Source of the DNA: Pseudoruegeria sp. HB172150
Lineage (GTDB): Bacteria; Pseudomonadota; Alphaproteobacteria; Rhodobacterales; Rhodobacteraceae
Reading direction: 5' to 3'
NCBI RefSeq assembly: GCF_013184805.1
Contig: NZ_JAATNG010000002.1
Span: 434,001 to 498,000, forward strand
Length of the DNA stretch: 64,000 nucleotides
Position numbers and translations under genes: made by a program. Of this stretch, positions 37,895 through 55,521 are shown piece by piece (the first letter of the stretch is position 1; every line of letters starts with the position of its first letter). A model generated the notes under the pieces. The model saw only the letters and a program-made list of their open reading frames with translations, was not told the origin of the DNA and did no database searches.

Positions 37895-37989
37895 GTGCGC
37901 GCTTTCTCTCCGGAAGGCGGGATTGCGGTGCCGCGGTGGGAGGGGCCGGAGGTGTTCGGGAGTTCTGCGGTGGTTCGTGCCATCCCGGA

Positions 37990-39392: not shown

Positions 39393-40333
39393 TCCCGGTC
39401 TCCCAGTCCGATGACGCGGTGGCGCAGCTTTTCCGAGCCGTAGTCGATGATTACAACGGTCACGAAGATGATGATGAACAGCGCCGAGAGGTCGGTGTAT
39501 TCCTGGAACGACATGGCGGTGCGGATCTCCTGCCCCAGTCCGCCGGCGCCGACATAGCCGATGATCGAAGAGGAGCGCACGTTGATCTCGAACCTGAGCA
39601 GCGTGTAGCTGATCACATTCGGCAGCACCTGCGGCACGGCGCCATAGCGGATCTGGTCGAACCAGTTACCGCCGGCGGCCTTTACACCTTCGAGCGGGCG
39701 CATGTCGATGTTTTCGATAGCTTCGGAGTAAAGCTTGCCGAGCGCGCCGGTGGCGTGCAGGCCGATGGCCATGACGCCTGCCATCGGGCCGACCGAGAAG
39801 CAGAACACGAAGATCAGCGCCCAGACGAGCTCCGGTACGGTCCGGGCGATTTCCAGGTAGCGGCGGGTGATCCACAGGATCCACCGGTTCGGCGCCAGGT
39901 TGCGCGAGGCGGGAAAGGCCAGGGTAAAGCCGCCGATGACGCCGAATGTAGTGGCCATGAAGGCGATCAGGATGGTTTCGATCAGCAGGCGCAGCCATGT
40001 CTGCCAGCGCCAGAACCAGTTTGCGAGATCGGCGCCGAGGGTTTCCCAGTGCAGATCCGGGAAGGTCTGGACGATGTATTCACCCAGCCGCGGCAGGCCG
40101 GCGGGAATGATCCAGCGCCATTCGCGGCTGCCGTCGGGCATGGTCACCTGGGTGACCTTGAAGAAGTCGCCGAGCCAGGCGGTGAGGCAGAATGCGGCGA
40201 AGAAAAGAATGGTCCCCACGGCCCAGGAGATGCGGGCGGAGCGGCGTTTTTCGGCGTAGTCGCGCTCGAAGGCGGCGATCGCGCTTGGTCCGGAGACCGG
40301 CGGGTTGGTGGTGAACTCGGCGGTTATGGTCAT
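39389..40333 (-). CDS. phnE: Phosphonate ABC transporter permease PhnE (first)
   Basis: 314 residues with the PhnE EAA loop LEGVKAAGGNWFDQIRYGAVPQVLP and INVRSSSIIGYVGAGGLG. The N-terminus carries a cytoplasmic segment before the first helix. It is 58 bp downstream of phnD with a strong hairpin in the gap. Two permease genes in tandem are common in alphaproteobacterial phosphonate importers. Confidence 0.93.
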   Translation of the reverse strand: MTITAEFTTNPPVSGPSAIAAFERDYAEKRRSARISWAVGTILFFAAFCLTAWLGDFFKVTQVTMPDGSREWRWIIPAGLPRLGEYIVQTFPDLHWETLGADLANWFWRWQTWLRLLIETILIAFMATTFGVIGGFTLAFPASRNLAPNRWILWITRRYLEIARTVPELVWALIFVFCFSVGPMAGVMAIGLHATGALGKLYSEAIENIDMRPLEGVKAAGGNWFDQIRYGAVPQVLPNVISYTLLRFEINVRSSSIIGYVGAGGLGQEIRTAMSFQEYTDLSALFIIIFVTVVIIDYGSEKLRHRVIGLGDRE

Positions 40334-40391: not shown

Positions 40392-41312
40392 TTACGAACC
40401 GCGGCGCTGTTCTTTCAGCCACTGGCGCATGTCGACGATCCACTGGTAGCGTTCGTGATCGACGCGCTTGAAGCCGGCATCGGGGTTCGGATCGTTCGGA
40501 TCGATGCGGTTGTAGGCGGCCCAACCTTCGGGATCGGCAGTCGGGAAGGATTCGAAGGCTGCAGTGATCTCTTCGATCATTTCCGGCGGCAGATTGGTGC
40601 GGAAGGCGAGCGGGCCGCTGGTGATCTCGGGGCTTTCCCAAATCTTGCAGACAACACCCTTCTCGATCATGCCCTTGTTTTCCATGTTCTGGAAAACGCC
40701 GTCGAGGTCGCTCGACTGGTTGGTGGAGGCGGTGTCGAAGGTGCCGTTCACCACGCCCTGCACGCCGGCTTCGTGGCTGCCCGAGAACGGAGTGGCAGAG
40801 AAATACTCGGCCGGGTCGATCCCTTCTTTGGAGACGAAGTTGAAGTAGGGCACGGCGTAACCCGAGGTCGAGTCGGGATCGGCGAAGGCGTGAACCTTGC
40901 CCTCGGCATCGGCCAGCGATTTGATGCCGCTGTCGCAGCGGGTGACCACGATGGAGTTGTAGCCCGAGTTGCCGTCTTTCTTGACCGTGGTCAGGGTCGG
41001 CACGACGCCGCCTTCGGTGGCGGTATAGGCGGCAGCATAGGAGGAGGAGCCGAAGCGCGCCGCTTCGATCTGGTTGGCGGCGATGGCCTGGATCACGCCG
41101 TCGTAGTTGCCGGCGGTAAAGATCTCGACCGAAACGCCGAGCGTGTCCTCAAGGTAGGCCCGCAGCGGTTCGTTGCGTTCCAGCCGGTCCTTTTCGTTTT
41201 CGCCCGACAGGACGCCGAACTTGACGACCTGATAGTCGTCGCGCCAGCCCTCGGCAAAGAGCGGGCCGGCGGCGGTCAGCGCCACGATGGCAGCGGTGGT
41301 GAACAGTTTCAT
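40392..41312 (-). CDS. phnD: Phosphonate ABC transporter substrate-binding protein
   Basis: 306 residues with a Sec signal peptide (MKLFTTAAIVALTAAGPLFA) and PhnD-type features: FGVLSGENEKDRLER, FTAGNYDGVIQAIAANQIEAARFG and FADPDSTSGYAVPYF, where the Ser/Thr cluster binds the phosphono group in the family. It delivers phosphonate or phosphate esters to the PhnE channel. It is 36 bp after phnC and followed by a stem-loop. Confidence 0.94.
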   Translation of the reverse strand: MKLFTTAAIVALTAAGPLFAEGWRDDYQVVKFGVLSGENEKDRLERNEPLRAYLEDTLGVSVEIFTAGNYDGVIQAIAANQIEAARFGSSSYAAAYTATEGGVVPTLTTVKKDGNSGYNSIVVTRCDSGIKSLADAEGKVHAFADPDSTSGYAVPYFNFVSKEGIDPAEYFSATPFSGSHEAGVQGVVNGTFDTASTNQSSDLDGVFQNMENKGMIEKGVVCKIWESPEITSGPLAFRTNLPPEMIEEITAAFESFPTADPEGWAAYNRIDPNDPNPDAGFKRVDHERYQWIVDMRQWLKEQRRGS

Positions 41313-41348: not shown

Positions 41349-42161
41349 TTACGCCGGAACCTTTTCGCGGTGCCGGATCGAAGTGGAGGTGACGGCCTCG
41401 TTGAACTCCTCGAGTCCCTCGGAACCGTAGATGTCGCGCACAACCTCGTCGGTGAGCTGCGGCGCGGTGCCGTCGAACATGACCCGGCCGTCGCGCATCG
41501 CGATGACGCGGTCGCAGTAGGCGCGGGCCGTATCGAGGGTGTGGAGGTTGACCAGAACGGTCAGTCCGTCCTCGCGGTTGATGGATTTCAGCGCTTCCAT
41601 CACGCGGGTGGCGTTGCCCGGGTCGAGCGAGGCGATGGGTTCGTCGGCCAGCATGATGCGCGGGTTCTGGACCAGGGCGCGGGCGATGGCGACGCGCTGC
41701 TGCTGGCCGCCGGAGAGCGTGCCGGCGCGCTGCAGCGCCTTCGGCGCCATGTCGAGCCGGTCGAGCGCTTCGATTGCCATCGTCCGTTCGGCGTCGGAAA
41801 AGCGCATCGCCATCGAGTTGACGAAGCTGTGGTCGGCGAGGCGGCCGACCAGCACGTTGGTCAGCACGTCGAGCCGTTCCACCAGGTTGAACTGCTGGAA
41901 GATCATCGCGCAGTCGCGGCGCCATTCCCGCAGCGCCTTGCCGCGTAGCGATGTTATCGTTCGCTCGCCGAAGCTGACCTGCCCCTCGGACGGGTCTATC
42001 AGGCGGTTGATCAGGCGCAGAAGCGTGGACTTTCCTGCGCCGGAGCGACCGATGACGCCGACGAACTGACCGGGCAGGATCGTCAGTGATACCTGATCCA
42101 CCGCGGCGACACTGCCGAAACGTCGGGTGAGGTTCTGGAGCGTGAGTTCGTGTCTGTTCAT
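41349..42161 (-). CDS. phnC: Phosphonate ABC transporter ATP-binding protein
   Basis: 270 residues with Walker [11 protein letters not shown]-loop region [23 protein letters not shown], signature [15 protein letters not shown] and Walker [14 protein letters not shown]; all typical of PhnC. It opens the minus-strand operon phnC-D-E-E-phosphatase-transglutaminase-acetyltransferase. A 14 bp palindromic box shared with the phnF promoter lies 38 bp upstream. Confidence 0.95.
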
Positions 42162-42497: not shown

Positions 42498-43721
42498 ATG
42501 GACGGGACGGGCATGATGCAGGCGACCGTGTTCGAAGGCGCGGAGGTTGTGCTGGGCGACCGGATCGAGAAGGTCTCGGTCCGGGTGGAGGACGGGGTGA
42601 TCACCGGGCTCGACGTATCACACGATGGGGCGCGGGTGGTGGAGGCGAAGGGGCGGTTGCTGGCACCGGCGCTGGTCGATGTGCACGGCGACGCTTTCGA
42701 GCGGCAGCTGATGCCGCGGCCGGGTGTGTTCTTTCCCATCGACGTGGCCGTGCTGGAGACCGACCGGCAGCTGGCCGGGAACGGCATCGCCACTGCCTAT
42801 CATGCCATGACCATGGGCTGGGAGCCGGGGCTGCGGTCGATCGACCGGGGCAGGGAGCTGGTTCAGAAACTGTCGGACATGGCGCCGCGGCTGGCCGTGG
42901 AGAATCGGGTGCAGTTGCGCTGGGAGACGTTCTGCCTGGAGGCGGAGGACGCGCTGGCCGACATGCTGGCCTCCGGGCTGACGCCGTCGGTCGCGTTCAA
43001 CGATCACACCTCGATGGGTCTGCTTGCGCCGGACGTGCGGCTGCAGGACCGGCCGTTCGAACTGTCGCCGGATTTTCCGGTGGTCGATACGACTTCTGCC
43101 GAGTTCCGCCGAAAGATGGAGAAGCGGGCGATGCGGTCGGACATTCCGGTCGACGCGTTCATTTCGCTGATGCTGGGTGTCTGGGAGCGGCGCCCGCAGG
43201 TGGCCGATGGCATTGCACGGGTGGCCGAAAAGGCGCGAGCCGTGGGGGCGCCGATGCTGAGCCATGACGATACGCAGATCGAGACGCGGGATTTCTATCG
43301 CGGACACGGCTCGCGTATCTCAGAGTTTCCAATGAACGACACGGTGACAGAAGCGGCGCGCGAGGCGGGGGACTGGATCGTCTTCGGATCGCCCAACGTG
43401 GTGCGGGGCGGCAGTCACATCGGGTCGCCCTCGGCGGCGGAGATGGTGGAGCGGGGCCTCTGTGATATCCTCGCGTCGGATTACTATTATCCGGCGGTGC
43501 TGGCAGCGGTTGCACGGCTGCACGCAGAAGAACGCGCGCCTCTGCATGAGCTGTGGAAGCTGATTTCCACCAATGCCGCGGCCGCCTCGGGCCTGACCGA
43601 CCGGGGCGAGATCGCGACAGGGAAGCGGGCCGATCTGGTGCTTGTCGACTGGCCCGACAGTGCGGCGCCGAAAATCGACATGACGCTCAGCGCCGGGCGC
43701 GTGGCACACAGCGCGTTCTGA
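42498..43721 (+). CDS. phnM: PhnM-like amidohydrolase (alpha-D-ribose 1-methylphosphonate 5-triphosphate diphosphatase family), first copy
   Basis: 407 residues. The metal-binding start is LVDVHGDAFERQLMPRPGV; the late GSPNVVRGGSHIGS and SDYYYPAVL segments are PhnM features. The VHGDAFERQ form differs from DMHGDMIERE of the second copy at 43830, so the two are separate subtypes (about 40% similar by eye, not recent duplicates). PhnM removes diphosphate from the ribose-triphosphate phosphonate intermediate. It is transcribed opposite to the rest of the locus. Confidence 0.9.
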   Translation: MDGTGMMQATVFEGAEVVLGDRIEKVSVRVEDGVITGLDVSHDGARVVEAKGRLLAPALVDVHGDAFERQLMPRPGVFFPIDVAVLETDRQLAGNGIATAYHAMTMGWEPGLRSIDRGRELVQKLSDMAPRLAVENRVQLRWETFCLEAEDALADMLASGLTPSVAFNDHTSMGLLAPDVRLQDRPFELSPDFPVVDTTSAEFRRKMEKRAMRSDIPVDAFISLMLGVWERRPQVADGIARVAEKARAVGAPMLSHDDTQIETRDFYRGHGSRISEFPMNDTVTEAAREAGDWIVFGSPNVVRGGSHIGSPSAAEMVERGLCDILASDYYYPAVLAAVARLHAEERAPLHELWKLISTNAAAASGLTDRGEIATGKRADLVLVDWPDSAAPKIDMTLSAGRVAHSAF

Positions 43722-43829: not shown

Positions 43830-44999
43830 TCAGGCCGCCGCGTGCAGCAGCAACGAGCCGTCCGAGAAGATCTTGCGCCCGCCGCGGAAGGTGGCGCGGA
43901 CATGTCCCACGCCCTCGTCATCGGCGATGACCAGATCGGCGCGCTTGCCCAGGGCGATCTCGCCGCGGTCGGCGAGACCCAGGGCGCGGGCCGGATTGGC
44001 GGTGGCGAGGCGGGTTGCGCCGGCGAGGCCCTGCGGGTCGGCCCGGCCGAGGATCAGAATAGCTGGCAGGATCGCTGAAGGGTGGTAGTCGGCGGCGAGT
44101 ATGTCGAGCAGGCCTTTCAAATGGGCCTCCCGGGCCGAGAGATTGCCGGAATAGCTTTCGCCGCGCAGCGCGTTGGGCGCGCCCATCGCGGTCAGGAGAC
44201 CGCGTGAACGCGCGGCGCGCGCGGCTTCCTCGGTGACCGGGAATTCCGAAATCGTGGCGCCGAGGGAGTGCATCAGCGCGACCTTTTCGGGGGTATCGTC
44301 ATCATGGCTTGCCAGAGCGATGCCATGTTCGGCGCAGGTGGCCGAAATGGCGGCGAGGGTGGCGGCGACGTCGCCGGCGGAGCGGCGTTTCTCGTCGATG
44401 CGTTCCTGCACGTCTGCGACGGCCTCGGCCTCGGTCATGCCCTTTTCCTTTACGGTGCGGGCGGTCAGGCGCTCGATGTCGCGGTACTGGCCCTGGCCGG
44501 GTGTGTGGTCGGTCAGCGAGACCAGATCGACCGTGCCATCGGAAATCAGTTCTTCGACCACGGCGAGGGCGTTGGGGTAGTTGATCTCGAACCGCGCGTG
44601 GACGCGGTGGTCGACCTTTAGGACCTGGCGCATCGTCTTCAGCGCGCGGAGCATCTCCTTGGAATGCTCGTAGCTGCGCAGGTGGCCGTAGGCGGATTTC
44701 GGGTTGAACGAGACGGCGGCGTAGCCGGTCGTGACGCCGTTGACCTTGAGTCGGCGGTCGAGGTCGCGCAGGCCAAGCTCCATCGGCATCTTCACGTTCG
44801 GGCGCGGCTCGACTTCGCGCTCGATCATGTCGCCGTGCATGTCGATGAAGCCGGGCATCAGCAGCAGGCCGTCGCCGTCGAGGGCGGGGTTGTCGACCGG
44901 GTGACCGGTGATTTCGGCGATCCTGCCGTCCTCGATGCGCAGCGCGCCTCGGTTCAGTACGGCTTCGGGCAGGACGATGCGGAAATTGCTAAGCCACAT
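43830..44999 (-). CDS. phnM: Alpha-D-ribose 1-methylphosphonate 5-triphosphate diphosphatase PhnM, second copy
   Basis: 389 residues of the amidohydrolase superfamily. LMPGFIDMHGDMIEREVEPRPNVKMPMELGLRDLDRRL is the standard PhnM start with the HxD metal motif; SLTDHTPGQGQYRD and ALASHDDDTPEKV carry further metal ligands. It ends the phnFGHIJKLM unit and overlaps phnL by 11 bases. It hydrolyses the triphosphate intermediate after the PhnGHIL step. Two phnM genes of different type in one locus are unusual. Confidence 0.93.
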   Translation of the reverse strand: MWLSNFRIVLPEAVLNRGALRIEDGRIAEITGHPVDNPALDGDGLLLMPGFIDMHGDMIEREVEPRPNVKMPMELGLRDLDRRLKVNGVTTGYAAVSFNPKSAYGHLRSYEHSKEMLRALKTMRQVLKVDHRVHARFEINYPNALAVVEELISDGTVDLVSLTDHTPGQGQYRDIERLTARTVKEKGMTEAEAVADVQERIDEKRRSAGDVAATLAAISATCAEHGIALASHDDDTPEKVALMHSLGATISEFPVTEEAARAARSRGLLTAMGAPNALRGESYSGNLSAREAHLKGLLDILAADYHPSAILPAILILGRADPQGLAGATRLATANPARALGLADRGEIALGKRADLVIADDEGVGHVRATFRGGRKIFSDGSLLLHAAA

Positions 45000-45690
45000 C
45001 GGAAAGTTCCTTGGGTTTGAGCCGGATATCCCGGTCGATCAGGTGGGCCACGTCAGCGGCGTGGTGGAAGACGCCGATCATTGCGACGCCCTGGGACTTG
45101 AGGTCGGCGAGGCGGGTGACCAAGGCCTCGCGCGCACCCACGTCCAGAGAGGCGGTCGGCTCGTCAAGGAGTAGCAGGCGCTGCGGCAGGATCAAGGCGC
45201 GTGCGAGGTTCACCTTCTGCTGCTCGCCGCCTGAGAAGGTGGTGGGATAGGCGCGCCAGAGGTCTTGCTTGACGCCGAAGGTTTTGAGCCAGTGGCAGGC
45301 TTCCTTGAGCGCATCGTCGCGGGAGTGGCCGGCGAGGCGGAGCGGTTCGGCGACGATATCCTCGGCCGGCACGCGCGGGCGGGCGGTAAGGAACTGGGTG
45401 ACAAAGCCGATCTCTGTCCGGCGCAGGTGGGCGATATCGATATCGGCCGCCTGCGCGAGGTCGATGACGCCCTCGCGGCTGTCGTACCGGATCTGGCCGG
45501 CGACGGGCAGGTAGCTGCGGTAGAGGGTGCGTAGCAGGGTGGATTTTCCGACACCGTTGGGGCCGGAGAGCAGCAGAAACTCGCCGGGAGAGACGGTGAA
45601 GGACAGGTCCTCGAAGGCCATCAGGGACTGTCCGAGGTGGTGCATCTGGAAGGTCTTGGTCAGACCTTCGACGGTGAGGATGGGAGGCAT
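44989..45690 (-). CDS. phnL: C-P lyase accessory ATP-binding protein PhnL
   Basis: 233 residues, ABC-type ATPase: Walker A GPNGVGKST, signature FSGGEQQKVNLARAL, Walker B LLLLDEPTASLD, and the PhnL-specific VTQFLTARPRVPAEDIVAEPL. In E. coli PhnL helps the PhnGHI complex attach the phosphonate to the ribose of a nucleoside triphosphate. ATG 45690 with GGGAGG is the start; earlier codons lie in phnK. Confidence 0.94.
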   Translation of the reverse strand: MPPILTVEGLTKTFQMHHLGQSLMAFEDLSFTVSPGEFLLLSGPNGVGKSTLLRTLYRSYLPVAGQIRYDSREGVIDLAQAADIDIAHLRRTEIGFVTQFLTARPRVPAEDIVAEPLRLAGHSRDDALKEACHWLKTFGVKQDLWRAYPTTFSGGEQQKVNLARALILPQRLLLLDEPTASLDVGAREALVTRLADLKSQGVAMIGVFHHAADVAHLIDRDIRLKPKELSDVA

Positions 45691-45694
45691 CTGG

Positions 45695-46495
45695 TTACAG
45701 TTTCGCGTGGACGAGTTGCTGGGTGTAGGCATGCTGCGGATCCTGGAATACCTGATCGACGAGGCCGTCCTCGACGACTTGACCGCGACGCATGACCATG
45801 ACACGGTCGGCCATGGTGCGGATGACGCCGAGGTCATGACTGACCAGTACCATGGTGATGCGACGTTCCTGTTGCAGGCGCTTGAGTGTGTCGAGCACCA
45901 GCGCCTGAACCGAGACGTCGAGACCGGTTGTCGGCTCGTCGAGCAGCAGCACCGCCGGTTCTAGTGCGATGGCCTTGGCGAGCTGGACGCGTTGCTGCAT
46001 GCCGCCGGACAGTTCAATCGGCGGGGCGTCCATGCGGGGGATCGGAAATTCGGAGGCTTCGAGGGCTGACTGCGCCTTTTCGCGGAGGACGTGGAAGCGG
46101 CGTTCCCCGGCGATCAGCAGCCGTTCGGCGACGTTTCCGGATGAGGAATGCGTCATCAGCAGGCCCTCATGCGGATTCTGGTAGACGATGCCGATCTGCC
46201 GGGCGCAGAGCATCCGGCGCTCGAACCGGTCGAGGGTGAAGAGGTTATCGGGCAGGTCCGGCAGGTCGAGGTGGTAGCTGCCGCTGTCGGGGGTTTCCTG
46301 CAGGTTCATCAGGCGGAGGAAGGTGGACTTGCCGGAGCCGCTTTCGCCGACGATGCCGAGGACCTCGCCGGGGTAGACCTGGGCGGAAACATCGTCCAGC
46401 GCCGTCACGTCGTCGTAGGTTTTCGAGATACCATTCAGGGTCATCAGCGGCCGGGTGCGGACGAGTTGCGGCGGCTGTTTTGCGAGCGCGGTCAT
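45695..46495 (-). CDS. phnK: C-P lyase accessory ATP-binding protein PhnK
   Basis: 266 residues with Walker A GESGSGKST, signature LSGGMQQRVQLAKAI, Walker B LLLDEPTTGLD, and the PhnK-like IVYQNPHEGLLMTHSSSGNVAERL. PhnK binds the PhnGHIJ core through PhnJ in E. coli. The start at 46495 overlaps the phnJ stop as ATGA. The N-terminus has about 16 residues before the usual ABC start. Confidence 0.94.
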   Translation of the reverse strand: MTALAKQPPQLVRTRPLMTLNGISKTYDDVTALDDVSAQVYPGEVLGIVGESGSGKSTFLRLMNLQETPDSGSYHLDLPDLPDNLFTLDRFERRMLCARQIGIVYQNPHEGLLMTHSSSGNVAERLLIAGERRFHVLREKAQSALEASEFPIPRMDAPPIELSGGMQQRVQLAKAIALEPAVLLLDEPTTGLDVSVQALVLDTLKRLQQERRITMVLVSHDLGVIRTMADRVMVMRRGQVVEDGLVDQVFQDPQHAYTQQLVHAKL

Positions 46496-47406
46496 TGCTG
46501 CATCTCCCCGTCCTTGTACCAGGTCTCGCCGAACTCGACCTGTTCGCCAGAGGTGCGGTCGATGGCCTTGATGCCGAGATGGCTGTCGGACACCTCGTGG
46601 GCCGCTGTGCCGTCCTCCTGCGGGATCTCGTTCATGAAGAAGCCCTTCAGGCCGGACCGGATGCAGGTGAGGTGGCCGTGATCCTCGACCTTGTACGGCA
46701 CGTCGTCGAAGACCAGCGGCTCGACGGAGGTGTGGGGCGGGACGGCGTAGATGCGCTTTTCGCGGCCCGCCGAGAGGATCGTCAGATGCTCGGCCATGTT
46801 GAGCTTCGGCACGTCCCAGCGGGGGATGGGCGACGGGGCCATGACATGGCGGCGATTGACCATCGAGGGGTAGGCGGCGCCCTGCATGATGCGCCCGGAG
46901 CGGACGATCTGTTCGTAGAGCGTCAGCCAGAGGCGGCCGTAATCTGCATCCGCATGCATCTGGCGCGCGACGGACATGTTGGGTTCCACCGGGCGCAGCG
47001 GTTCCGGGTTCGGAACCTGCAGGATCAGGATCTGGTCGGACCGCAGCTTTTCCTCGGGCACGCGGTGGCGCGACTGGATCAGCGTGGCATCGAGCGTGTC
47101 CCATGTCGCCTCTGCGCCTGAGACGCGGGTGAGGAAGCGGCGGATCGAAGCGGCGTTGACGCTGTCATCGGCGCCCTGGTCGATGACCTTCACGACGGAC
47201 GCCTTGTTGAGCAGTGTCAGCGTGACCTGCAGGCCGCCGGTGCCCCAGCCGCGTGCGATCGGCACTTCCCTGCTGGCATAGGGCATCTGGCAGCCGGGGA
47301 CGGCGACTGCCTTTATCATCTTGCGCCGCATCTCGCGCTTGGCGGATGCGTCGAGGAAGCCGTAGGAGAAGGCTTTCCAGTTTTCGGTGAGGCTGGCGAG
47401 GGTCAT
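46492..47406 (-). CDS. phnJ: PhnJ homologue (C-P lyase core subunit) lacking the canonical cysteines
   Basis: 304 residues. The first about 240 match PhnJ well: KAVAVPG with Gly38 (E. coli radical Gly32), RGWGTGGLQVT, VIDQGADDSVNA, HRVPEE, QVPNPEPLRPVEP and FGAGREKRIYAVPP-like SAGREKRIYAVPP. E. coli PhnJ then has CAICG and CSDTDYC, whose four Cys hold the iron-sulfur cluster or metal and the radical thiol. Here the aligned parts are CIRSG (248-252) and VSDSHLG (272-278): only Cys248 remains. The other Cys in the protein, Cys39, directly follows the radical glycine. No frameshift explains it. The C-terminus is also replaced. Canonical C-P lyase activity is doubtful. Confidence 0.85.
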   Translation of the reverse strand: MTLASLTENWKAFSYGFLDASAKREMRRKMIKAVAVPGCQMPYASREVPIARGWGTGGLQVTLTLLNKASVVKVIDQGADDSVNAASIRRFLTRVSGAEATWDTLDATLIQSRHRVPEEKLRSDQILILQVPNPEPLRPVEPNMSVARQMHADADYGRLWLTLYEQIVRSGRIMQGAAYPSMVNRRHVMAPSPIPRWDVPKLNMAEHLTILSAGREKRIYAVPPHTSVEPLVFDDVPYKVEDHGHLTCIRSGLKGFFMNEIPQEDGTAAHEVSDSHLGIKAIDRTSGEQVEFGETWYKDGEMQQ

Positions 47407-48476
47407 GCGGGTTCTTCGGTCTGGACGGGGGATTTGGCGGGCTCGCGTTTAGCCCTGGCCGCGCGAAGGTTGTCGAGGGCGGACTGGAAGGTCACGTAAT
47501 GCGGCAGTTTGAAGTGGATGCAGAAGCCCGAGCTTTCGACCGGTTCGGTGTGGTAGAGGAAGAATTCCTCGTTCACCGGCGAATTCTTCGGCGCGCCGGG
47601 AGCGTTGAGGTCGAGCGTGGCGCCGGCGATGACCTTGACCTCGTTCCAGCCAAGCGTGGCGCAGAATCCGATACTCAGATCCGTCTTGCCCCGCGCGGTT
47701 ACTACCTCTGCCTGCGAGGTCTTGACCCGGCCCGCCGAGAAGGTGGCGCCGCCTGGGTGCCTGACCATGACTTCGACTTCGGACAGGCGCAGTTCGTTCA
47801 CCGTAGGGTGGGCGTTGCCGTAGCCGCGCATGGCGGAATAGCCGAGCGCGAGCATGCCGCCGGTATCGGCACGTGCGAGGCTTTGCAGGCTGTGGGCGCG
47901 TTTGGCCGGGAACAGCAGCGGTTCGCGGGTTAGGTCGGGGATATCGTCCTTTTCGACCGGCTGCAGGGGCTTGTCGGCTATGAGCCCCTGCTCCTTCTGC
48001 CATTCCGCGAGGGACGGGTGCCGGGCCGGTGCCGGTTTCCTTGCTGGTTCCACCGGGGCGGGCGAGAAGGTGTCGCCCTGCAGCACGTCCGTGGCCAGCA
48101 GGCGGTGCGCGTAGTCGAGTGTCGGACCAAGGATCTGGCCGCCGGGAATGTCCTTGAAGGCGGCGGATATGCGGCGGTGGGTGAAGCCCTGGTCAGGCTC
48201 GACCACCTCGGCGATCTGCAGGCGCGGCTGGGTGGTGCGCCAGGCGCGAAGGAGCAGCAGCGCTTCGTAAAGGTCGCCGCCGGATTGTGCCAGTGCCAGG
48301 GCGGCCAGGTCGGGGGCGTAGAGGCTGGCCTCTCCCATCACGCGGTCGATAAGGGAGGGGAGCGCCGCTTCGATCTCGGCGACGGTGCCGGCATCGATGG
48401 GACCCATCTGGGCGCGGTAGAGGCGCTCCGCCTGTTCGATGGCGCGCTCGCCACCGCGGGTTGCGACATAGGCCAT
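47403..48476 (-). CDS. phnI: PhnI homologue (core subunit), divergent
   Basis: 357 residues, close to E. coli PhnI in length. Conserved parts are YVATRGGERAI, DRVMGEASLYAPDLAALAL, RRISAAFKDIPGGQILGPTLDYAHRLL and the two His of HFKLPHY (321 and 326, equivalent to the metal-binding pair in E. coli). The usual RGYGLVFG.SERKAMAM.LVDRAL segment is absent; residues 250-290 read ...DLSIGFCATLGWNEVKVIAGATLDL instead. PhnI is the nucleosidase subunit that loads the phosphonate on ribose. Its stop overlaps phnJ by four bases. Confidence 0.88.
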   Translation of the reverse strand: MAYVATRGGERAIEQAERLYRAQMGPIDAGTVAEIEAALPSLIDRVMGEASLYAPDLAALALAQSGGDLYEALLLLRAWRTTQPRLQIAEVVEPDQGFTHRRISAAFKDIPGGQILGPTLDYAHRLLATDVLQGDTFSPAPVEPARKPAPARHPSLAEWQKEQGLIADKPLQPVEKDDIPDLTREPLLFPAKRAHSLQSLARADTGGMLALGYSAMRGYGNAHPTVNELRLSEVEVMVRHPGGATFSAGRVKTSQAEVVTARGKTDLSIGFCATLGWNEVKVIAGATLDLNAPGAPKNSPVNEEFFLYHTEPVESSGFCIHFKLPHYVTFQSALDNLRAARAKREPAKSPVQTEEPA

Positions 48477-48480
48477 GCGG

Positions 48481-49023
48481 TCAGCCTTCCGTAACTAGAG
48501 TGGAGCGGGGGATGGCGACGAGGCGGCGGCCATCCACGAAGATCAGTTCGATGCCCAGCGGGTAGCGGCAGAGGCCAGCGCGTACGCGCCAGATCGCGGG
48601 GTGCAGGTTGCCAATTGCGATGGTGGCGCTGCCGGGGGTGCCGGGGCCGGAAAGGGTGATCTGCGGCCCGGTGTCCAGTGAGGCGGGGACGGTCACGGTG
48701 GCGCCCTGGTCGGGGTAGAGCTGCGAACCGGCAGTGACGCGGGCGAGGTGGTCGATGGCCTCTTCGCTGTCGAGCGACATCAGCAGATGGTCGGCGAGTT
48801 CCGGTGGGACTAGCGTGGCACCTGTGGTCTTCAGCGTGGCGGCAAGTTCGGGGTCGTCGGCGAAGGCGCGGCATTCGCGGTCGATCAGGGCGAGGGCGAC
48901 CGGCAGAAGGCCCGGTTCCGGCATTTCGTGGATCGTGCCGGGGCGCGAGAGGGCGTTGAGGAGCGCGGAGAAGGTGGCGTTGTCGCGGTGTTCCTCGGCG
49001 TCGGGTTCGGGAGTGGTGAGCAT
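48481..49023 (-). CDS. phnH: C-P lyase core subunit PhnH
   Basis: 180 residues. The family marks are FSALLNALSRPGTIHEMP near the N-terminus, GPGTPGSATIAI and the C-terminal YPLGIELIFVDGRRLVAIPRST. PhnH is a structural member of the PhnGHIJ core. It starts at ATG 49023, whose first base also ends phnG. Confidence 0.91.
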   Translation of the reverse strand: MLTTPEPDAEEHRDNATFSALLNALSRPGTIHEMPEPGLLPVALALIDRECRAFADDPELAATLKTTGATLVPPELADHLLMSLDSEEAIDHLARVTAGSQLYPDQGATVTVPASLDTGPQITLSGPGTPGSATIAIGNLHPAIWRVRAGLCRYPLGIELIFVDGRRLVAIPRSTLVTEG

Positions 49024-49466
49024 CAGAAGGTTTCCATGTCGACGCGCGTCGCTTCGATATTGCGAAGGGTGTCGCGGTCTTCTTCGGCCTGGGTGGCGGC
49101 CATGCGGGCAACGAAGGCGGTAAGGCTGTCGGTTTCGATCCCGGCGGTGAGGGCAGCGTCGATCAGCGCCATCGCCATGGCGCGTTCGAGGTCGCGGCCG
49201 ATGATCATGCCGTAGCCTTCGACGCCGTGGGCTGTGAGACGAATATGGGCTTCGGCGACAAGGACTTCGCCGAGGTGGAAATCGGTGCCTTCGACGGTGT
49301 CGCGCATCGGAAGCATGACGAGCCCGGTGCGGCTGTTGACCACCTCGATGTCACCGAGCATGGGGAGGATGGCTTCAGCCTCCCCCTTGATGGCTGTCGC
49401 ATCGGCGCGGGCGAGGACGGTCAGGCGGTCCCCGTGATCGCGCGGGGAGGTGTTTTCGTCAAACAT
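49023..49466 (-). CDS. phnG: C-P lyase core subunit PhnG
   Basis: 147 residues, like E. coli PhnG (150). RTGLVMLPMRDTVEGTDFHLGEVLVAEAHIRL and GYGMIIGRDLERAMAMALIDAAL are the family core, and ATRVDMETF replaces the usual ATRVDFFT end. PhnG pairs with PhnI in the core complex. ATG 49466 overlaps the phnF end by 8 bases; longer readings lie inside phnF. Confidence 0.9.
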   Translation of the reverse strand: MFDENTSPRDHGDRLTVLARADATAIKGEAEAILPMLGDIEVVNSRTGLVMLPMRDTVEGTDFHLGEVLVAEAHIRLTAHGVEGYGMIIGRDLERAMAMALIDAALTAGIETDSLTAFVARMAATQAEEDRDTLRNIEATRVDMETF

Positions 49467-50211
49467 CGATAGTGCCTTGCGAACTGTCGAAGAGGAAGCG
49501 GATGCGGCCGGCGACCCAGGCGGCTTCGGAATAGCCGATGGGAATGCCTTCGAGATCGACGTCGAGCTTGCACATGATGAGGACCGGCTGGTCTGCCGGC
49601 ATCTCCAGCAGGCGCGCTTCCCATTTTTCGGGCAGGCGGGCGTAGATCGACGTCTCGCGGCGGCTGTAATCGGAGATGCCGTGGTCGGCGTAGATGGCGG
49701 TGACGGATTCCTCCTTGCCGCGGCGCTCGCCCAGATCGGGGAAGCGAGCGGCGGGGTGGAAGCTTTGGCTGAGGCTGATCGGGCGACCGTCGGCATGGCC
49801 GCGGCGCTGGATACAATGGACTGCCGTGCCGGTGTTGACGGCCAGTGCCTCGGCCACGTCGGGCCGAGCCTCGACGATATCTTCGGTGATCGACTCACCG
49901 CCGGGGCGGACGCCTTGCGACAACATGTTCTCGCGGTAGCGCGTGCGGCTGCCGATGCGGTAGGTGATCTTGGGCAGACCGCGCACGAAGGTGCCGCGTC
50001 CCTGCTCAACGCTCAGCACGCCTTCTGCCGCGAGCGCGGCGACGGCGCGGCGCAGCGAGTGGCGGCCGACGCCGATCTCGCGCTGCATCTGCGGTTCTGG
50101 GGGGAGCTTATCGCCCTCGGCCAGCGCCGCATTGGCAATGCTCTCCACGATCCAGTCGCGGGCCCGTTCCCAGTTGCTGGTTCCAGACAAGATACTCTCC
50201 GGCTGATTCAT
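49459..50211 (-). CDS. phnF: GntR/HutC family regulator PhnF
   Basis: 250 residues: a winged helix-turn-helix at about 13-77 (GDKLPPEPQMQREIGVGRHSLRRAVAALAAEGVLSVEQGRGTFV) and a C-terminal UTRA ligand domain. It is the expected repressor of the phn genes. The start codon at 50211 lies inside the 14 bp box at 50206-50219, and no ribosome binding site is seen before it, so the message could be leaderless or the true start slightly different. Confidence 0.92.
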   Translation of the reverse strand: MNQPESILSGTSNWERARDWIVESIANAALAEGDKLPPEPQMQREIGVGRHSLRRAVAALAAEGVLSVEQGRGTFVRGLPKITYRIGSRTRYRENMLSQGVRPGGESITEDIVEARPDVAEALAVNTGTAVHCIQRRGHADGRPISLSQSFHPAARFPDLGERRGKEESVTAIYADHGISDYSRRETSIYARLPEKWEARLLEMPADQPVLIMCKLDVDLEGIPIGYSEAAWVAGRIRFLFDSSQGTIDV

Positions 50212-50219
50212 CCGAATGA
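50206..50219. promoter_or_regulatory. Candidate PhnF operator, phnF promoter copy
   Basis: ATTCATCCGAATGA, the exact reverse complement of the box at 42199-42212. It overlaps the phnF start codon, which suggests tight autoregulation. Confidence 0.65.
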
Positions 50220-50755
50220 CTTTTGATAGGCCGCGAATTTTTCCGCCCGATGACAGGATGGTAAAAGTGATGCGACAATCGCGGCGGCCAGGCGAACTGC
50301 TATCCGAAGATTCGAAAGACCCGGATATCACAGGCGATGTGGGTTCACGGAAACTGACGAGCAGTCAGGCCGTGGCAGTATTTCGCCGAAACGCAGTACT
50401 CGCGTCAAAACCAATACTGCAACTGCGAAATCGCGCTATAGTTGTAAATAGTGATGTCTGCGGAGCCTGGGGCCGATGGACGATGCGCGACAATGCTCCT
50501 CTCCGGGGCGGTTCGGTACTGCCGGAAATCTATCTCCGATTAATTTCTGTGCGACTGGCCCCAGCCAGCGGAATCCTTCCAACCTAAACGAGATGCCGCA
50601 GTGCAACAAAGCCATGTTGCAAATGTTTCACATGCGAAACTTGAGGTTCTGAGTTGACGACAGGTTAACCTTAACGAATTCTGGACGTGCTTGGGTGAGT
50701 TATCAACAGCAGACTCCACAACTTGTGGATAGTTTGCGAAGCATGATGGATGCGA
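50212..50755. other. Gene-free interval phnF / sugar transferase
   Basis: 544 bp, AT-richer than its surroundings, no credible gene. It holds inverted repeats GCAAC...GTTGC (about 50604-50620) and GTTTC-N6-GAAAC (50625-50640), and the palindrome AGGTTAACCT at 50662-50671 about 85 bp before the sugar transferase start. These may be regulatory sites for the exopolysaccharide gene. Confidence 0.5.
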
Positions 50756-51424
50756 ATGGAAGTGTTCGATTTCAGTGCCGTAGATAGCTCCGCCCTCGCG
50801 GAACGGAGCAAACCTTCTCGCCATTCGGCGGAGAATCGCAATTTTTTCAATACGTGCAAACGTGCGTTTGATATCGGGATGTGTATCCTTCTCATCCCAT
50901 TCTTTCTGACGGTGGCCGCTGCGCTCGTGCTGCTCAATCCCTGGCTGAACTCCGGTCCGTTGTTCTTTGTCCAGAAGCGCATGGGACGGCATTGTGAACC
51001 GTTCGGAGCGATCAAGTTCCGGTCCATGAGCGAGGCGGAGGTGATCGAGCGGTCGCCTGAATGTCCTCTTGAGGTACATCGGATCACCGTGCTTGGCCGG
51101 TTCATTCGCCGGATCCGTATCGACGAGCTGCCGCAGATCCTGAACGTGCTGCGCGGGGAGATGAGCCTGATCGGTCCCCGACCGGATTGTTACGAACATG
51201 CGGAGCACTATCTGCGCGAGGTTCCCGGTTACAGGTATCGCCACAGCGTACGGCCGGGTATCAGCGGGCTGGCACAAACCGAGGTTGGCTATGTCGAAGG
51301 ATCCAACGCGACCCGCCGCAAGGTCAGCGCCGATCTGTATTACATATCTCACACCGGGTTCCTCATGGAAGCCTGGCTGGTGTGGAGAACGCTTGCGGTG
51401 ATTCTGGGTCGGCAGGGGAACTGA
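50756..51424 (+). CDS. ExoY/WcaJ-type bacterial sugar transferase
   Basis: 222 residues. One strong hydrophobic segment (MCILLIPFFLTVAAALVLL, about 40-60) precedes the cytoplasmic catalytic part with FVQKRMGRHCEPFGAIKFRSM, RIRIDELPQILNVLRGEMSLIGPRPD and SVRPGISGLAQ, the polyprenyl-phosphate hexose-1-phosphate transferase signature. It starts exopolysaccharide repeat units at the inner membrane. ATG 50756 is preferred over 50750 because MEVFDFS then matches MFDFS of its paralogue at 52311. Confidence 0.91.
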   Translation: MEVFDFSAVDSSALAERSKPSRHSAENRNFFNTCKRAFDIGMCILLIPFFLTVAAALVLLNPWLNSGPLFFVQKRMGRHCEPFGAIKFRSMSEAEVIERSPECPLEVHRITVLGRFIRRIRIDELPQILNVLRGEMSLIGPRPDCYEHAEHYLREVPGYRYRHSVRPGISGLAQTEVGYVEGSNATRRKVSADLYYISHTGFLMEAWLVWRTLAVILGRQGN

Positions 51425-51648: not shown

Positions 51649-52311
51649 TCAGCTGCCCTTGAAGGCGCCGCAGATGAGTATTGAGCGCCAGAGGATCCAC
51701 GCTTCGAGCCCGAGGCTGGCATTGCTGATGTAATGCAGGTCGGCTTGGACCTTTCTGCGGGTTTCCTCGGTGCCGACGACGTAGCCGATCTCTGTCTGCG
51801 CCAGGCCGGTGATCCCGGGGCGGACGGAGTGGCGTTCGCGGTAGCCGGGGATATCACGCAGGTACTGTTCCGCCAGTTCGTACATGTCCGGTCGCGGGCC
51901 GATCAGGCTCATTTCGCCCCTCAGCACGTTAATCGCTTGCGGAAACTCATCGATGCGGCTGCGTCGCAGAAACCGCCCGAGGAGCGTTATCCGGTCGGTT
52001 TCCAGTGGGCTGTCGGCGGTTCGATTGCAGAAGGCCGTCTCGCGCATGCTGCGGAACTTGATCATCCGGAAGGCAGTACAGCCCTGACCCATTCTCGTCT
52101 GGCAGAAGAACAAGGGGCCGCGGTTGAGCCAGGGATTGAGGAACCAGAGAGTGGCGGCGATGGGAACTGTAGTCAGGAGGATTAGGAGGCTTCCGACGAT
52201 GTCGAAGCTGCGCTTTGCCTTCTGGTAGGAAATCGGTCGGGGCGATGGCGCGTCGGAATAGGCCGGCAGGCCCGGACAGGGTGCGGGCCCTGTATTGCTG
52301 AAGTCAAACAT
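51649..52311 (-). CDS. ExoY/WcaJ-type bacterial sugar transferase (paralogue)
   Basis: 220 residues with one N-terminal membrane segment (VGSLLILLTTVPIAATLWFL), FCQTRMGQGCTAFRMIKFRSM, RSRIDEFPQAINVLRGEMSLIGPRPD and SVRPGITGLAQTEIGYV. It is clearly a paralogue of the protein at 50756 and converges on it. ATG 52311 gives MFDFS; a longer reading lacks support. Two priming transferases suggest two polysaccharides or conditional use. Confidence 0.9.
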   Translation of the reverse strand: MFDFSNTGPAPCPGLPAYSDAPSPRPISYQKAKRSFDIVGSLLILLTTVPIAATLWFLNPWLNRGPLFFCQTRMGQGCTAFRMIKFRSMRETAFCNRTADSPLETDRITLLGRFLRRSRIDEFPQAINVLRGEMSLIGPRPDMYELAEQYLRDIPGYRERHSVRPGITGLAQTEIGYVVGTEETRRKVQADLHYISNASLGLEAWILWRSILICGAFKGS

Positions 52312-52693
52312 GTCGCTGGTGAACCCAAACTGAACTCGTGGACGCGGCAGGGACGCGTGTAGGAGACCCAACTGACAGGAGGCGTCAACATCGTGGTTAT
52401 CGAAATGATAATGGTTAACCTAATGCCGGGAACATATTGTGTCTGACGGGGCTGTCGGCGCAACGACGTTAAGGAAATTCGCCGCTGTTTTGCCTAATGA
52501 GTAGGCATGCACATTTTGGATTAACAATTTGATTCGAATAGTTAAATTGGCACAGCTGCGGTAACAGGTTGTTAGGTTCCGTTAACACGGGTGTCCTCGG
52601 GCCGCTGGGCCGGAAGCGACGTTCCCTACCGGTTCCTCACAAGGGTTTCCGTCGCCGGCGAAGAGTCCGAATGGTAATCGGGGCTCATATTCC
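52312..52693. other. Gene-free interval sugar transferase / RTX glycosidase
   Basis: 382 bp. It contains GGTTAACC at 52413-52420, read on the minus strand as TTAACCAT, which resembles a CtrA half-site, and the inverted repeat TGCCT-N7-AGGCA at 52491-52507. Several further TTAAC words lie at 52520-52590. It probably carries the promoter of the minus-strand sugar transferase and the end of the RTX gene transcript. Confidence 0.5.
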
Positions 52694-55315
52694 TCAGAAC
52701 TGCTGTGCCTCGATGTCGGAGAGTGTATGCCCCTCTATCCGGAGGCTGCAGATCCCGAAGATGTCGATGAGCACGTCATCGCCATCCTGCACCGCAACCT
52801 CGTCCCAGAGCGCGGATTGCGGCGACAGGCCGTGGATGATGAGGCGGTCCGTGCCGATCTCGAAATCGGTGATGGTGTCGCGGCCCGCGTCGCGGCCGAG
52901 GTTGAACAGGAAAATGTCCGCGCCGCCGCCGCCGGTCAGGATGTCATCGCCCTGGCCGCCGTTCAGCAGGTCGTCGCCGTCGCCGCCGTCGAGGATCTCG
53001 GCATAATCGCCGCCGTGCAGGGTGTCGTTGCCAGTGCCGCCTGCGGCGATGCTGCCGGTGCCGTCCACGGTAATGCGGTCGTTGCCGTCGCCGCCGTCCG
53101 CAAGGCCGTCTGCGCCGTGGAGGTCGATGCTGTCGTCGCCGCCTTCGCCGTGGGCGATGGCGCCGTCGGACTGTACCCGGATTGCATCGCCGCCGTCGCC
53201 CGCGTGGATCTCTGGCGCGGGGCCAGTAAAGACGAACTGATCCGCGCGGACGGTGCCGGCGATATGATCGATGCCGTCGAAGGTGAGCGGCAGAGGGTTC
53301 TGCGGCGGGATCCACGCGGAGCCGTCGCGGACGTGCAGGCTGAAATCGCCGTCGGCGTTGGAGAAGTCCAATGTGTCGATGCCGTCACCGCCATGGACTT
53401 CGCCCGCGCCGGACTCAAAGCGGATCAGGTCGTCGCCGCCGCCGGCGAAGACAACATTGGTGCCACCGTCGAGGTGAATCAGGTCGTTGCCGTCGCCGGC
53501 GCGAAGAGTGTCGTCGCCGGTGCCGCCGGAGAGGGTGTCGTTGCCGGTGCCGCCATCGAGCAGGTCATTTCCGGCACCGCCAAACAGCAGGTCGTCGCCG
53601 TCCAGCGCAGTGATCGTGTCGTTGCCGTTACCACCATGAATGGTGTCGGTGCCGTACCGGCCGGCCTGGGCGATATCGAGGAAGGTATCGTCGCCGTCGT
53701 CGAGGTAGACGAGATCCGGACCGTAGCCGCCCTCGACATAATCATTTCCCGAGCCGCCGTGGATGGTGTCGGCCTGACCGCCGCCCAGGAGCGTGTCGTT
53801 GCCCGGGCCGCCGTCGATGAAGTCGGCGCCACCGGAACCATCAATGCGGTCGTTGCCGTCGAAGCCTTGGAACGTGTCTGCATTCATGGTGCCGGTGAGG
53901 TCGTCCGCGAAGCCGGCGCGGTCGGAGACGTTGGCGCCAAAGGCGTTCTGGCCGGCGATGGTTACACCGGTACCAGCGGCTGCGAGAGTGACCATTGCGA
54001 TTTCGTAAGGTTGCAGGTCGAGGCTCAAGGTGCTGCTGCTCAGGTCTAGCCCAGTTTCCAGGTGCAGGCTTGCGAGGGTGTTCTTGTGATCCGGGATGCC
54101 GTCCGCGCCGAGCACGAGGGACCAGCCGAAATCGCCCGTTTCTGCGGTGGTGCCTAGATCGAGCGTGAAGGTTTCGGCACTGGCTGTGCGGTTGACGACG
54201 TAAATCACGTCGGACTTGCCCACCGTGAAATGATAAAGTGCGTGGTCCGTCGCGTAGTCCCGGCCACGCAAGTAGGCGCCGGAGAGGTTTTCGCTGATGA
54301 GACGGAACATCTCGCCGCCGGTGGTCAGGAATGTCTGGCCCTCGTTGCCAAAAAGGTCGTTCGTGGTGTTCTGCTGGACCGGCCAGGCCCAGGCGCCATC
54401 GACACCCAGCGCGACCATTTCCGAGAACATGTGCAGCATGGTCGCGCTTTGGCGAAGGCCGAATTCCTGCGTATGCGCGTGGTCGGTGTTCCATTCGGTC
54501 ACGATGGCGTCGAGGCCGGAGAACTTCGCGTTATCATTCCACTCGTCCATGCGGTCGAAGAACCAGTTGGTCTGGGTGACCGAGTCGAAACCGCCACCGT
54601 TGTAGTAGTGGCCGACGATGGCATCGACGGCGGCGGCCTCTGCCGTGCTGAACTCGGCCATGATCAGTTCGTTCTGCTGCCAGCCAGGACGGGTGTCATG
54701 TTTGCCGTACTGGCCGATCTGGACGGCGATGGAGGGCTCGGTCCAGTCGGCGCCTGGCTGTGCCGTTGCGACGAAGTTGTCGACCTCGCGCTGGATCGCG
54801 AGGGCGAAAGCGCTGGAAACGCGGCCGTATTCCTCGGCGGTCATGGCGCCGCCGAGCCAGTATTCGTTGCCGATCTCGAACGTGTCTACGGTGACGTCTC
54901 CGTAGTGGCCTTTGAGGATGTCGCGGACGAAAGCGCGGATCGCGGTGACAGCTTCAGGGTCCACCATGCGCTCGCCCTGAGCGCCAGAAAGCAGCGCGGT
55001 GCGTGTGGGCAAAACAATGTCGGCGGTCAGGCCGTTGGCAGCGCAATGCGCCATGAATTCGGAGAAAGGAAGCAGGTCGACCGTAGCGCCGGTATCCGGG
55101 TGCTGGGCGGTGGTAGCGTCGGGGTTGGTTACGTCGAAGTAGAGCTCGGTGACGGTGCCGCCGGGATAGCGCACGGATTTCAGGCCGAGCGCCGCGATGG
55201 CCTCGTCGAAGGTGCCGACGCCAAGACGGTCGCGGTCGATCAGGATGTTGCCGCCGAACATGCGGTCGGAGACGGCGGCAGCGTAGCTCGTGATGGTTTC
55301 GAGTGTCAGGTCCAT
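52694..55315 (-). CDS. Glycoside hydrolase-like protein with C-terminal RTX calcium-binding repeats
   Basis: 873 residues. The first about 450 residues look like a clan GH-A (beta/alpha)8 glycosidase: acid/base Glu151 in TFEIGNEYW and nucleophile candidate Glu274 in AIVTEWN, followed by a beta-sandwich-like part. Residues about 470-830 carry many GGxGxDxxx nonapeptides (GGPGNDTLL, GGAGNDLLD, GGTGNDTLS), the RTX calcium-binding roll. The C-terminus FLFNLGRDAGRDTITDFEIGTDRL is the usual type I secretion end. No Sec signal. It is probably exported and cuts a surface or environmental polysaccharide. ATG 55315 chosen; GTG 55324 possible. GH family not certain. Confidence 0.85.
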   Translation of the reverse strand: MDLTLETITSYAAAVSDRMFGGNILIDRDRLGVGTFDEAIAALGLKSVRYPGGTVTELYFDVTNPDATTAQHPDTGATVDLLPFSEFMAHCAANGLTADIVLPTRTALLSGAQGERMVDPEAVTAIRAFVRDILKGHYGDVTVDTFEIGNEYWLGGAMTAEEYGRVSSAFALAIQREVDNFVATAQPGADWTEPSIAVQIGQYGKHDTRPGWQQNELIMAEFSTAEAAAVDAIVGHYYNGGGFDSVTQTNWFFDRMDEWNDNAKFSGLDAIVTEWNTDHAHTQEFGLRQSATMLHMFSEMVALGVDGAWAWPVQQNTTNDLFGNEGQTFLTTGGEMFRLISENLSGAYLRGRDYATDHALYHFTVGKSDVIYVVNRTASAETFTLDLGTTAETGDFGWSLVLGADGIPDHKNTLASLHLETGLDLSSSTLSLDLQPYEIAMVTLAAAGTGVTIAGQNAFGANVSDRAGFADDLTGTMNADTFQGFDGNDRIDGSGGADFIDGGPGNDTLLGGGQADTIHGGSGNDYVEGGYGPDLVYLDDGDDTFLDIAQAGRYGTDTIHGGNGNDTITALDGDDLLFGGAGNDLLDGGTGNDTLSGGTGDDTLRAGDGNDLIHLDGGTNVVFAGGGDDLIRFESGAGEVHGGDGIDTLDFSNADGDFSLHVRDGSAWIPPQNPLPLTFDGIDHIAGTVRADQFVFTGPAPEIHAGDGGDAIRVQSDGAIAHGEGGDDSIDLHGADGLADGGDGNDRITVDGTGSIAAGGTGNDTLHGGDYAEILDGGDGDDLLNGGQGDDILTGGGGADIFLFNLGRDAGRDTITDFEIGTDRLIIHGLSPQSALWDEVAVQDGDDVLIDIFGICSLRIEGHTLSDIEAQQF

Positions 55316-55521
55316 GGGTCTCACAGCGTCGTTTGCTGCCCGCAGGTCATGCCTGTGAAGGGCGACTATCTGGTTGCTAGGACCTTCGCGCCAATCATTG
55401 CTGCGCAGGTGGTGAGACTGCGGCGAAACCGGGTTCTAACTGGAGGATTCAAGATTAACGCAAGCGATGCTGCAGGATTTGGCGTGCCGCATGGTTTGCC
55501 ATTGTCATCGGTGGCAGGCGA

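Follow-up and report, generated by a model that had tools for sequence, protein, structure and literature searches.

A clade of PhnJ proteins lacking cluster cysteines of C-P lyase, encoded in phnGHIJKLM operons

The four cysteines of the PhnJ C-terminal domain are treated as a mark of this protein in the accessible parts of PMC11978286 and of one other of the papers cited below. The window, i.e. the whole stretch of 64,000 nucleotides of Pseudoruegeria sp. HB172150 analysed here, contains a phn operon whose PhnJ departs from this rule, raising the question of whether the gene is damaged, whether it assists a canonical enzyme encoded elsewhere, or whether it belongs to a complex that breaks its substrate in another way.

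By sequence and fold, the window PhnJ (304 aa; 46492-47406, minus strand) belongs to the PhnJ family and to an operon of the C-P lyase type. It matches PF06007 over residues 12-277 with 384.4 bits against a cut-off of 25, and finds the solved E. coli PhnJ at E 6.7e-80 with 48% identity and the same fold, the alignment extending into the C-terminal domain. In an alignment of 126 deduplicated PhnJ sequences, including that of E. coli K-12, G32, R107, H108, and Q124 of E. coli correspond to G38, R113, H114, and Q130 of the window protein, and the residues of the Zn site and of the site for the 1,2-cyclic phosphate PRcP are common to both. Conversely, C241, C244, C266, and C272 correspond to C248, S251, V272, and G278, whereby the three positions of the 4Fe-4S ligands (C241, C244, C266) read C, S, and V, and the thiyl cysteine C272 is replaced by glycine. 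These changes fall within residues 240-280, VEDHGHLTCIRSGLKGFFMNEIPQEDGTAAHEVSDSHLGIK, encoded by 46567-46689 (minus strand) and including the replaced motifs CIRSG and VSDSHLG. The first-pass annotation had placed this stretch and read the three substitutions and the equivalence of Gly38 with Gly32 correctly; its wording that the cysteines are lost holds for three of the four, C241 persisting as Cys248. Its remark that the other frames contain no cysteine was mistaken, as one occurs in frame +1, accompanied by two stops and by no cysteine motif. A supply of cysteines from shifted positions, which it had named as a possible refutation, can be dismissed, the only cysteines of the window PhnJ being C39 and C248. 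Cys39, next to the putative radical glycine, was considered as a substitute and rejected, several relatives having Tyr or His in its place. As the window protein lacks cysteines that define the radical-SAM subunit, the name of a canonical C-P lyase would be misplaced for it.

The genes around phnJ are open, and mostly overlap or abut, in agreement with the earlier description of an intact and tightly packed operon. Upstream on the same minus strand lie phnI (47403-48476, 357 aa; PF05861, 356.6 bits), phnH (48481-49023; PF05845, and TIGR03292 with 102 bits, over cut-off), phnG (49023-49490, its 5' end within this stretch; TIGR03293 with 95 bits, over cut-off), and phnF, coding for a GntR-type regulator (49459-50331, start uncertain; TIGR02325 with 183 bits, over cut-off). 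Downstream, phnJ overlaps by 4 nt the ATPase gene phnK (45695-46495), followed by the ATPase gene phnL (44989-45690, start placed by eye) and by phnM (43830-44999; NF011988 with 522 bits and TIGR02318 with 430 bits, both over cut-off). All seven genes from phnG to phnM are hence present, in the subunit composition and order G-H-I-J-K-L-M of the E. coli enzyme, of which Phn(GHIJKL)2 structures are available (PDB 4xb6, 7z15-7z19). Unlike in E. coli, PhnK and PhnL remain under the NCBIfam equivalog cut-offs (TIGR02323, 219 bits against 302.85; TIGR02324, 239 bits against 256.3). A search for Pho boxes upstream returned two matches in the window, fewer than the chance mean of 2.95.

Beyond phnM, a second PhnM-like amidohydrolase gene (42498-43721; NF011987 with 362 bits, over cut-off, TIGR02318 with 295 bits, under it) lies on the opposite, plus strand, between phnM and phnC; similar second copies are present in some related loci, and the source genome has at least three PhnM-like genes, counting one beside its canonical operon. 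On the minus strand there follow a phnC-type ABC ATPase gene (41349-42161; PF00005, 45% identity to E. coli PhnC), phnD for a substrate-binding protein (40392-41312; TIGR03431 with 255 bits, narrowly missing 261, and TIGR01098, over cut-off), and two permease genes (39389-40333 and 38532-39392; neighbourhood cluster 2), judged phnE-type by eye and from their location. The nearest solved chains of the window PhnD are PtxB and PhnD, which score alike, so that this protein was discarded as a pointer to the substrate. Further along are a histidine-phosphatase-like frame (37990-38535, minus strand, by eye from the start RHAET), overlapping the permease genes by 4 bases, a transglutaminase-like frame (37028-37993, minus strand, by eye), overlapping the former by 4 bases, and a hexapeptide-repeat transferase gene (36405-37334, minus strand; PF00132, neighbourhood cluster 19), two other cluster members of which score as TIGR03308 (phn_thr-fam). 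The frames of 36405-38535, directly after the permeases, look co-transcribed with phnCDE. On the other side of the operon, an 876-aa protein with RTX calcium-binding repeats (52694-55324, minus strand; PF00353) is adjoined by two bacterial sugar transferases encoded in opposite directions (50750-51424 and 51649-52371).

The replaced cysteines are not peculiar to the window. Among the 126 PhnJ, the four cysteines are complete in 91, and C244, C266, and C272 are missing together in 33 (hereafter, cluster-less); the other 2, that of locus L077 and the second copy of locus L069, are cut before the site and are not counted among the 33. No intermediates occur, which argues against background variation. 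With the two truncated rows set aside, C244 and C266 are replaced in 33 of 33 cluster-less proteins, the position of C272 is occupied by G in 24, A in 6, and M, W, and I in one each, and C241 is retained in 31, all four cysteines being gone in the other 2. Moreover, the group has gained residues of its own, namely N at 252 (32/33), P at 255, and E at 265 (both 33/33), whereas full-length PhnJ outside it have all four cysteines without exception (91/91). In a tree built without the C-terminal domain, the 33 distinct sequences form one clade (SH-aLRT 99), to which canonical PhnJ of a gamma type (L072, L074, L077, L078, L087, L099) are placed as sister with a weak support of 79; the tree is unrooted and derives from a quick search that gave a warning of long branches meeting. 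Cluster-less phnJ evolves with dN/dS well below 1 (from the 97 and 80 pairs that passed the filters, out of 150 sampled in each case), the C-terminal domain being less constrained than the core (0.54 for the window and L031, range 0.07-0.58). The clade without the cysteines that the earlier annotation proposed to look for is therefore found, in phnGHIJKLM operons, and this operon type is monophyletic and under purifying selection.

The hosts of the clade are Alphaproteobacteria, Anaerolineae, and two metagenome-assembled genomes (MAGs) labelled otherwise. Six of 61 genomes searched, including that of the source organism, have cluster-less phnJ, each together with a canonical copy. In a collection of species genomes, the form is found in 28 of the best 80 of 592 confirmed loci (594 stretches), so that canonical PhnJ are sampled with a bias for the forms closest to the query. 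Identity to the window PhnJ is 67-86% in Rhodobacterales, Devosia, Phyllobacterium, Mesorhizobium, Neorhizobium, Hoeflea, Aureimonas, and an alphaproteobacterium, and 59-62% in MAGs called Anaerolineae, Bacteroidetes, or just bacterium; the remaining PhnJ of these 80 loci are at about 55% and below, apart from the second copy of L069 (57%, C-terminus absent). A profile of the C-terminal domain matches strongly in 24 of 394 evenly drawn genomes of the window's family and, at class level, in 2 of 385, both from this same family. The ten loci fetched among the 24 are all cluster-less; these and G000, G024, and G026 were read, the other 11 being assigned by score only. Weak matches (7 in the class; G555 and G736 in the family) were also considered as cluster-less and proved to be canonical on reading, indicating that nothing intermediate connects the two forms. 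In Paracoccus shanxieyensis (L033) and Aureimonas altamirensis (L046), which belong to different families, the cluster-less phnJ and phnI are near-identical, which suggests a recent transfer; in L046, frames that by eye resemble a resolvase and a transposase follow phnM.

The other subunits were compared in 29 loci (the 28 and the window). BLAST with E. coli proteins finds PhnI, PhnJ, and PhnK in all 29, PhnL in 28, PhnM in 25, PhnH in 24, and PhnG in 7; clustering, better suited to the short or divergent PhnG and PhnH, raises these last two to 26 PhnH-like and 23 PhnG-like, with some loci cut by contig ends. In E. coli, the Zn site and the site of PRcP, a modelled ligand, comprise R107, H108, and Q124 of PhnJ and H219, H328, and H333 of PhnI (accessible part of PMC9947105). 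The PhnJ residues are invariant in 33 of 33 cluster-less proteins, the PhnI histidines in 29 of 29 loci (H321 and H326 of the window protein being H328 and H333 of E. coli), and the positions of Q90, D170, E171, and H204 of the E. coli PhnK likewise in 29 of 29; the substrate-site and ATPase residues are thus retained where the cluster ligands and the thiyl cysteine were lost. Gly32, putatively the radical residue, is kept in 33 of 33.

PhnI, in turn, has gained a cysteine. The position of V326, variable in canonical loci with Val the commonest residue, is Cys in 29 of 29 cluster-less loci, as opposed to 1 of 51 canonical ones, and also in 10 further Anaerolineae and 2 further Haematobacter loci. 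In the window, this is Cys319 (codon 47520-47522, minus strand), two residues before the Zn ligand H321 (E. coli H328), and both the alignment and this spacing would place it beside the Zn site. The residue is not exclusive to the clade, as it also occurs in one canonical locus of the gamma type, L099, and in the canonical-type PhnI that L069 carries as its second copy; the canonical PhnI of the source organism has Leu. Cluster-less PhnI also differ at sites that are nearly invariant in canonical loci (D318 to Glu in 29/29, E252 to Gln and Y273 to Phe in 27 each). At the thresholds applied, PhnG (seven sequences only), PhnH, PhnI, PhnK, PhnL, and PhnM showed no further cysteine that is new throughout the clade.

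The source organism has a second, canonical phnJ on another contig, with the motifs CGLCG and CSDTDYC, whose product is 73% identical to that of E. coli and 47% to the window PhnJ, within an operon of phnF, G, H, I, J, K, and L with phnN, phnM, and DUF1045 (G000 contig C1, L173). More generally, 19 of the 28 source genomes of cluster-less loci carry a further PhnJ (in G068, in two contig pieces), and in the other nine the cluster-less protein is the only PhnJ match. Two of the nine, G071 and G081, were set aside as stand-alone cases, being MAGs with separate DUF1045-phnM pieces that suggest an unassembled canonical operon; the remaining seven are Haematobacter massiliensis (G078) and six MAGs of Anaerolineae type. 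Haematobacter has exactly one PhnJ, cluster-less, in 3 of 3 genomes. In the Anaerolineae class of G082, PhnJ occurs in 12 of 396 genomes, the cluster-less form in 12 of 12, and in 11 of these it is the only PhnJ match. The remaining genome, G1024, adds a chimeric canonical fragment, an open frame (L195, contig C173) that begins as canonical PhnJ and continues as acyl-CoA-dehydrogenase-like sequence by eye, probably a misassembly. A Rhodobacteraceae MAG has three PhnJ matches, and its locus L069 (1-10785) comprises cluster-less phnIJKL, followed downstream by phnF, D, C, E and by a second phnGHIJ set, of the gamma type, that the contig end truncates. Since the cluster-less type is the only PhnJ found in some genera or classes, a canonical PhnJ is apparently dispensable for the complex.

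The neighbourhoods of cluster-less loci contain phnCD, phnF, TIGR03308 and, in two cases, PhnX. Specifically, in L052 (13277-15244, an Anaerolineae MAG) and L057 (10201-12930, a MAG labelled Bacteroidetes) the operon is followed by PhnX (TIGR01422) and a TIGR03364 FAD oxidoreductase; given how closely the two agree, the Bacteroidetes label may be mistaken. For DUF1045, a role as the PRcP-opening phosphodiesterase has been proposed (accessible part of PMC8235418), and PRPP is made by PhnN (accessible part of PMC10574752). PhnN adjoins the stand-alone Haematobacter operon in the three genomes, DUF1045 is near it in two of them, the contig ending in the third, and Phyllobacterium has a single run G-H-I-J-K-L-M-DUF1045-PhnN with the cluster-less J, implying that in both genera PRcP would still be made. 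This route is unsupported in the Anaerolineae type (G082-G087), where no PhnN exceeds the cut-off and DUF1045 gives only one weak match, in G085. PhnP was discarded as a pathway marker: it exceeds the cut-off in 5 of 20 genomes only, all with canonical loci (including 4 of 4 tested genomes with the gamma type, L072, L074, L078, and L099), and is uninformative because it stays below the cut-off even in three canonical Firmicutes (G089-G091), in which PhnN is likewise below it. Matches to E. coli phnP and phnO are absent from the 29 cluster-less neighbourhoods, and phnN is matched in 3.

These features are tentatively explained by a second, self-standing type of C-P-lyase complex (PhnGHIJKLM with a cluster-less J), which would keep ribosylation and cyclic-phosphate formation and would cleave its substrate without a radical cluster in PhnJ; its probability is judged to lie just short of even. 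A more specific proposal, held a shade more loosely, is that catalysis has moved from the Fe-S/thiyl site of PhnJ to the PhnI/PhnJ Zn site with the PhnI cysteine, where ribosyl 1,2-cyclic phosphate would be produced without PhnJ's own radical-SAM cluster, meaning either that other phosphorus bonds are cleaved or that the C-P bond is broken by something other than the PhnJ cluster. In such a pathway, PhnGHIL would attach ATP-derived ribose to a phosphonate-like substrate, PhnM would trim the triphosphate, the Zn site would form PRcP, and DUF1045 and PhnN would convert it to PRPP. Formation of a 1,2-cyclic phosphate consists of an attack of the ribose 2-OH on phosphorus with departure of a leaving group, and a radical is required only for an unactivated carbon leaving group. 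The absence of the 4Fe-4S ligands, of C272, and of any radical-SAM-like motif among 531 neighbourhood genes favours an ionic cleavage, in which the 2-OH would attack P and the leaving group might be stabilised by Zn, His, and Cys. This ionic step is the least certain part of the proposal; with it, substrates would have a better leaving group than methyl, such as activated phosphonates or P-O, P-N, and P-S compounds, and methylphosphonate would not be expected to yield methane. Against this reading counts the conservation of Gly32, which a glycyl radical that is still in use, or else a structural role of the residue, would predict; moreover, no neighbour names a non-phosphonate substrate, all being ordinary phosphonate genes.

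Of the alternatives, a pseudogene, frameshift, or sequencing error, which the canonical phnJ elsewhere in the source genome could have made plausible, has a negligible probability: 33 distinct sequences share the replacements, with open frames, purifying selection, and clade-specific residues gained. The first-pass annotation had already argued against a frameshift or decay, and had listed a canonical copy elsewhere, with this one a pseudogene, among the outcomes that would overturn it; the copy exists, the pseudogene does not. A complex that serves as a front end only, ribosylating the substrate for the canonical PhnJ to finish, or that regulates or buffers the canonical complex, would fit the presence of both types in the source genome, its five relatives, and 19 of 28 source genomes. 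However, nine of 28 genomes have the cluster-less type alone (G071 and G081 with the reservation made above), as do the three Haematobacter and 11 of the 12 Anaerolineae, and this explanation is regarded as rather improbable.

Less easily put aside, though still unlikely, is that C-P bonds are cleaved by the usual radical route in spite of the missing PhnJ cysteines. Either no C-P lyase would draw its radical from the C-terminal site, or the radical would be installed in trans; the accepted PhnJ mechanism would then be incomplete, and the cysteine that PhnI has at the Zn site might do what is ascribed to C272. Glycyl radical enzymes, pyruvate formate-lyase among them (accessible part of PMC7916636), offer a possible parallel, in that the conserved glycine and a cysteine close to the substrate site could be interpreted alike. 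No activase over cut-off was found in 10 genomes with the pyruvate formate-lyase activase model (TIGR02493). Gly32 and the substrate site are conserved throughout the clade, and the published structures put the cluster site about 30 Å from Gly32 (accessible parts of PMC9947105 and PMC7916636); Zn in place of the cluster is mentioned in PMC7916636, which calls for further work, and zinc also in PMC11978286, as far as their accessible text goes. The phnF, phnCD, and PhnX neighbours point to phosphonates, and PhnN and DUF1045 imply the normal product. On the other hand, the invariance of the four cysteines in all 91 full-length PhnJ outside the clade indicates that they matter in the canonical form, and neither CxxxCxxC nor CxxCxxCxxxC occurs in the 531 genes picked in the 29 neighbourhoods; three unpicked frames carry such a motif, none of them recurrent, and the recurrent gene clusters were otherwise assessed by eye or through family scans of some members. 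TIGR02493, which models the pyruvate formate-lyase type of activase only, has no match whatsoever in H. massiliensis or G081, and scores 159-189 bits, below the cut-off of 231.75, in G082, G084, and G085, which leaves room for a putative activase in trans in these three Anaerolineae genomes. The earlier suggestion that another protein supplies the cluster gains little from these searches.

As to whether such a variant is already known, no PhnJ without these cysteines was found by title or abstract start among the papers listed from the open-licence full-text literature, consistent with the first-pass annotation, which knew of none. The accessible portions of PMC9947105, PMC11978286, PMC12413358, PMC9381506, PMC8774927, PMC6852614, PMC10574752, PMC10132767, PMC8235418, PMC9426474, and PMC7916636 make no mention of it either. 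PhnJ is employed as a marker gene for phosphonate use and for methane from methylphosphonate (PMC11978286, PMC9381506, PMC8774927, and PMC6852614, in their accessible parts), and the cluster-less clade, far above the PF06007 cut-off, could be miscounted as methane-producing. If cleavage were radical after all, the clade would bear on the 30 Å gap between the cysteine site and Gly32. More broadly, the clade offers a natural test of the open problem of how the E. coli cluster site relates to a glycine some 30 Å away (PMC9947105 and PMC7916636, accessible parts), and in Haematobacter and the Anaerolineae, where only the cluster-less form was found, the question may be asked with no canonical enzyme in the background.
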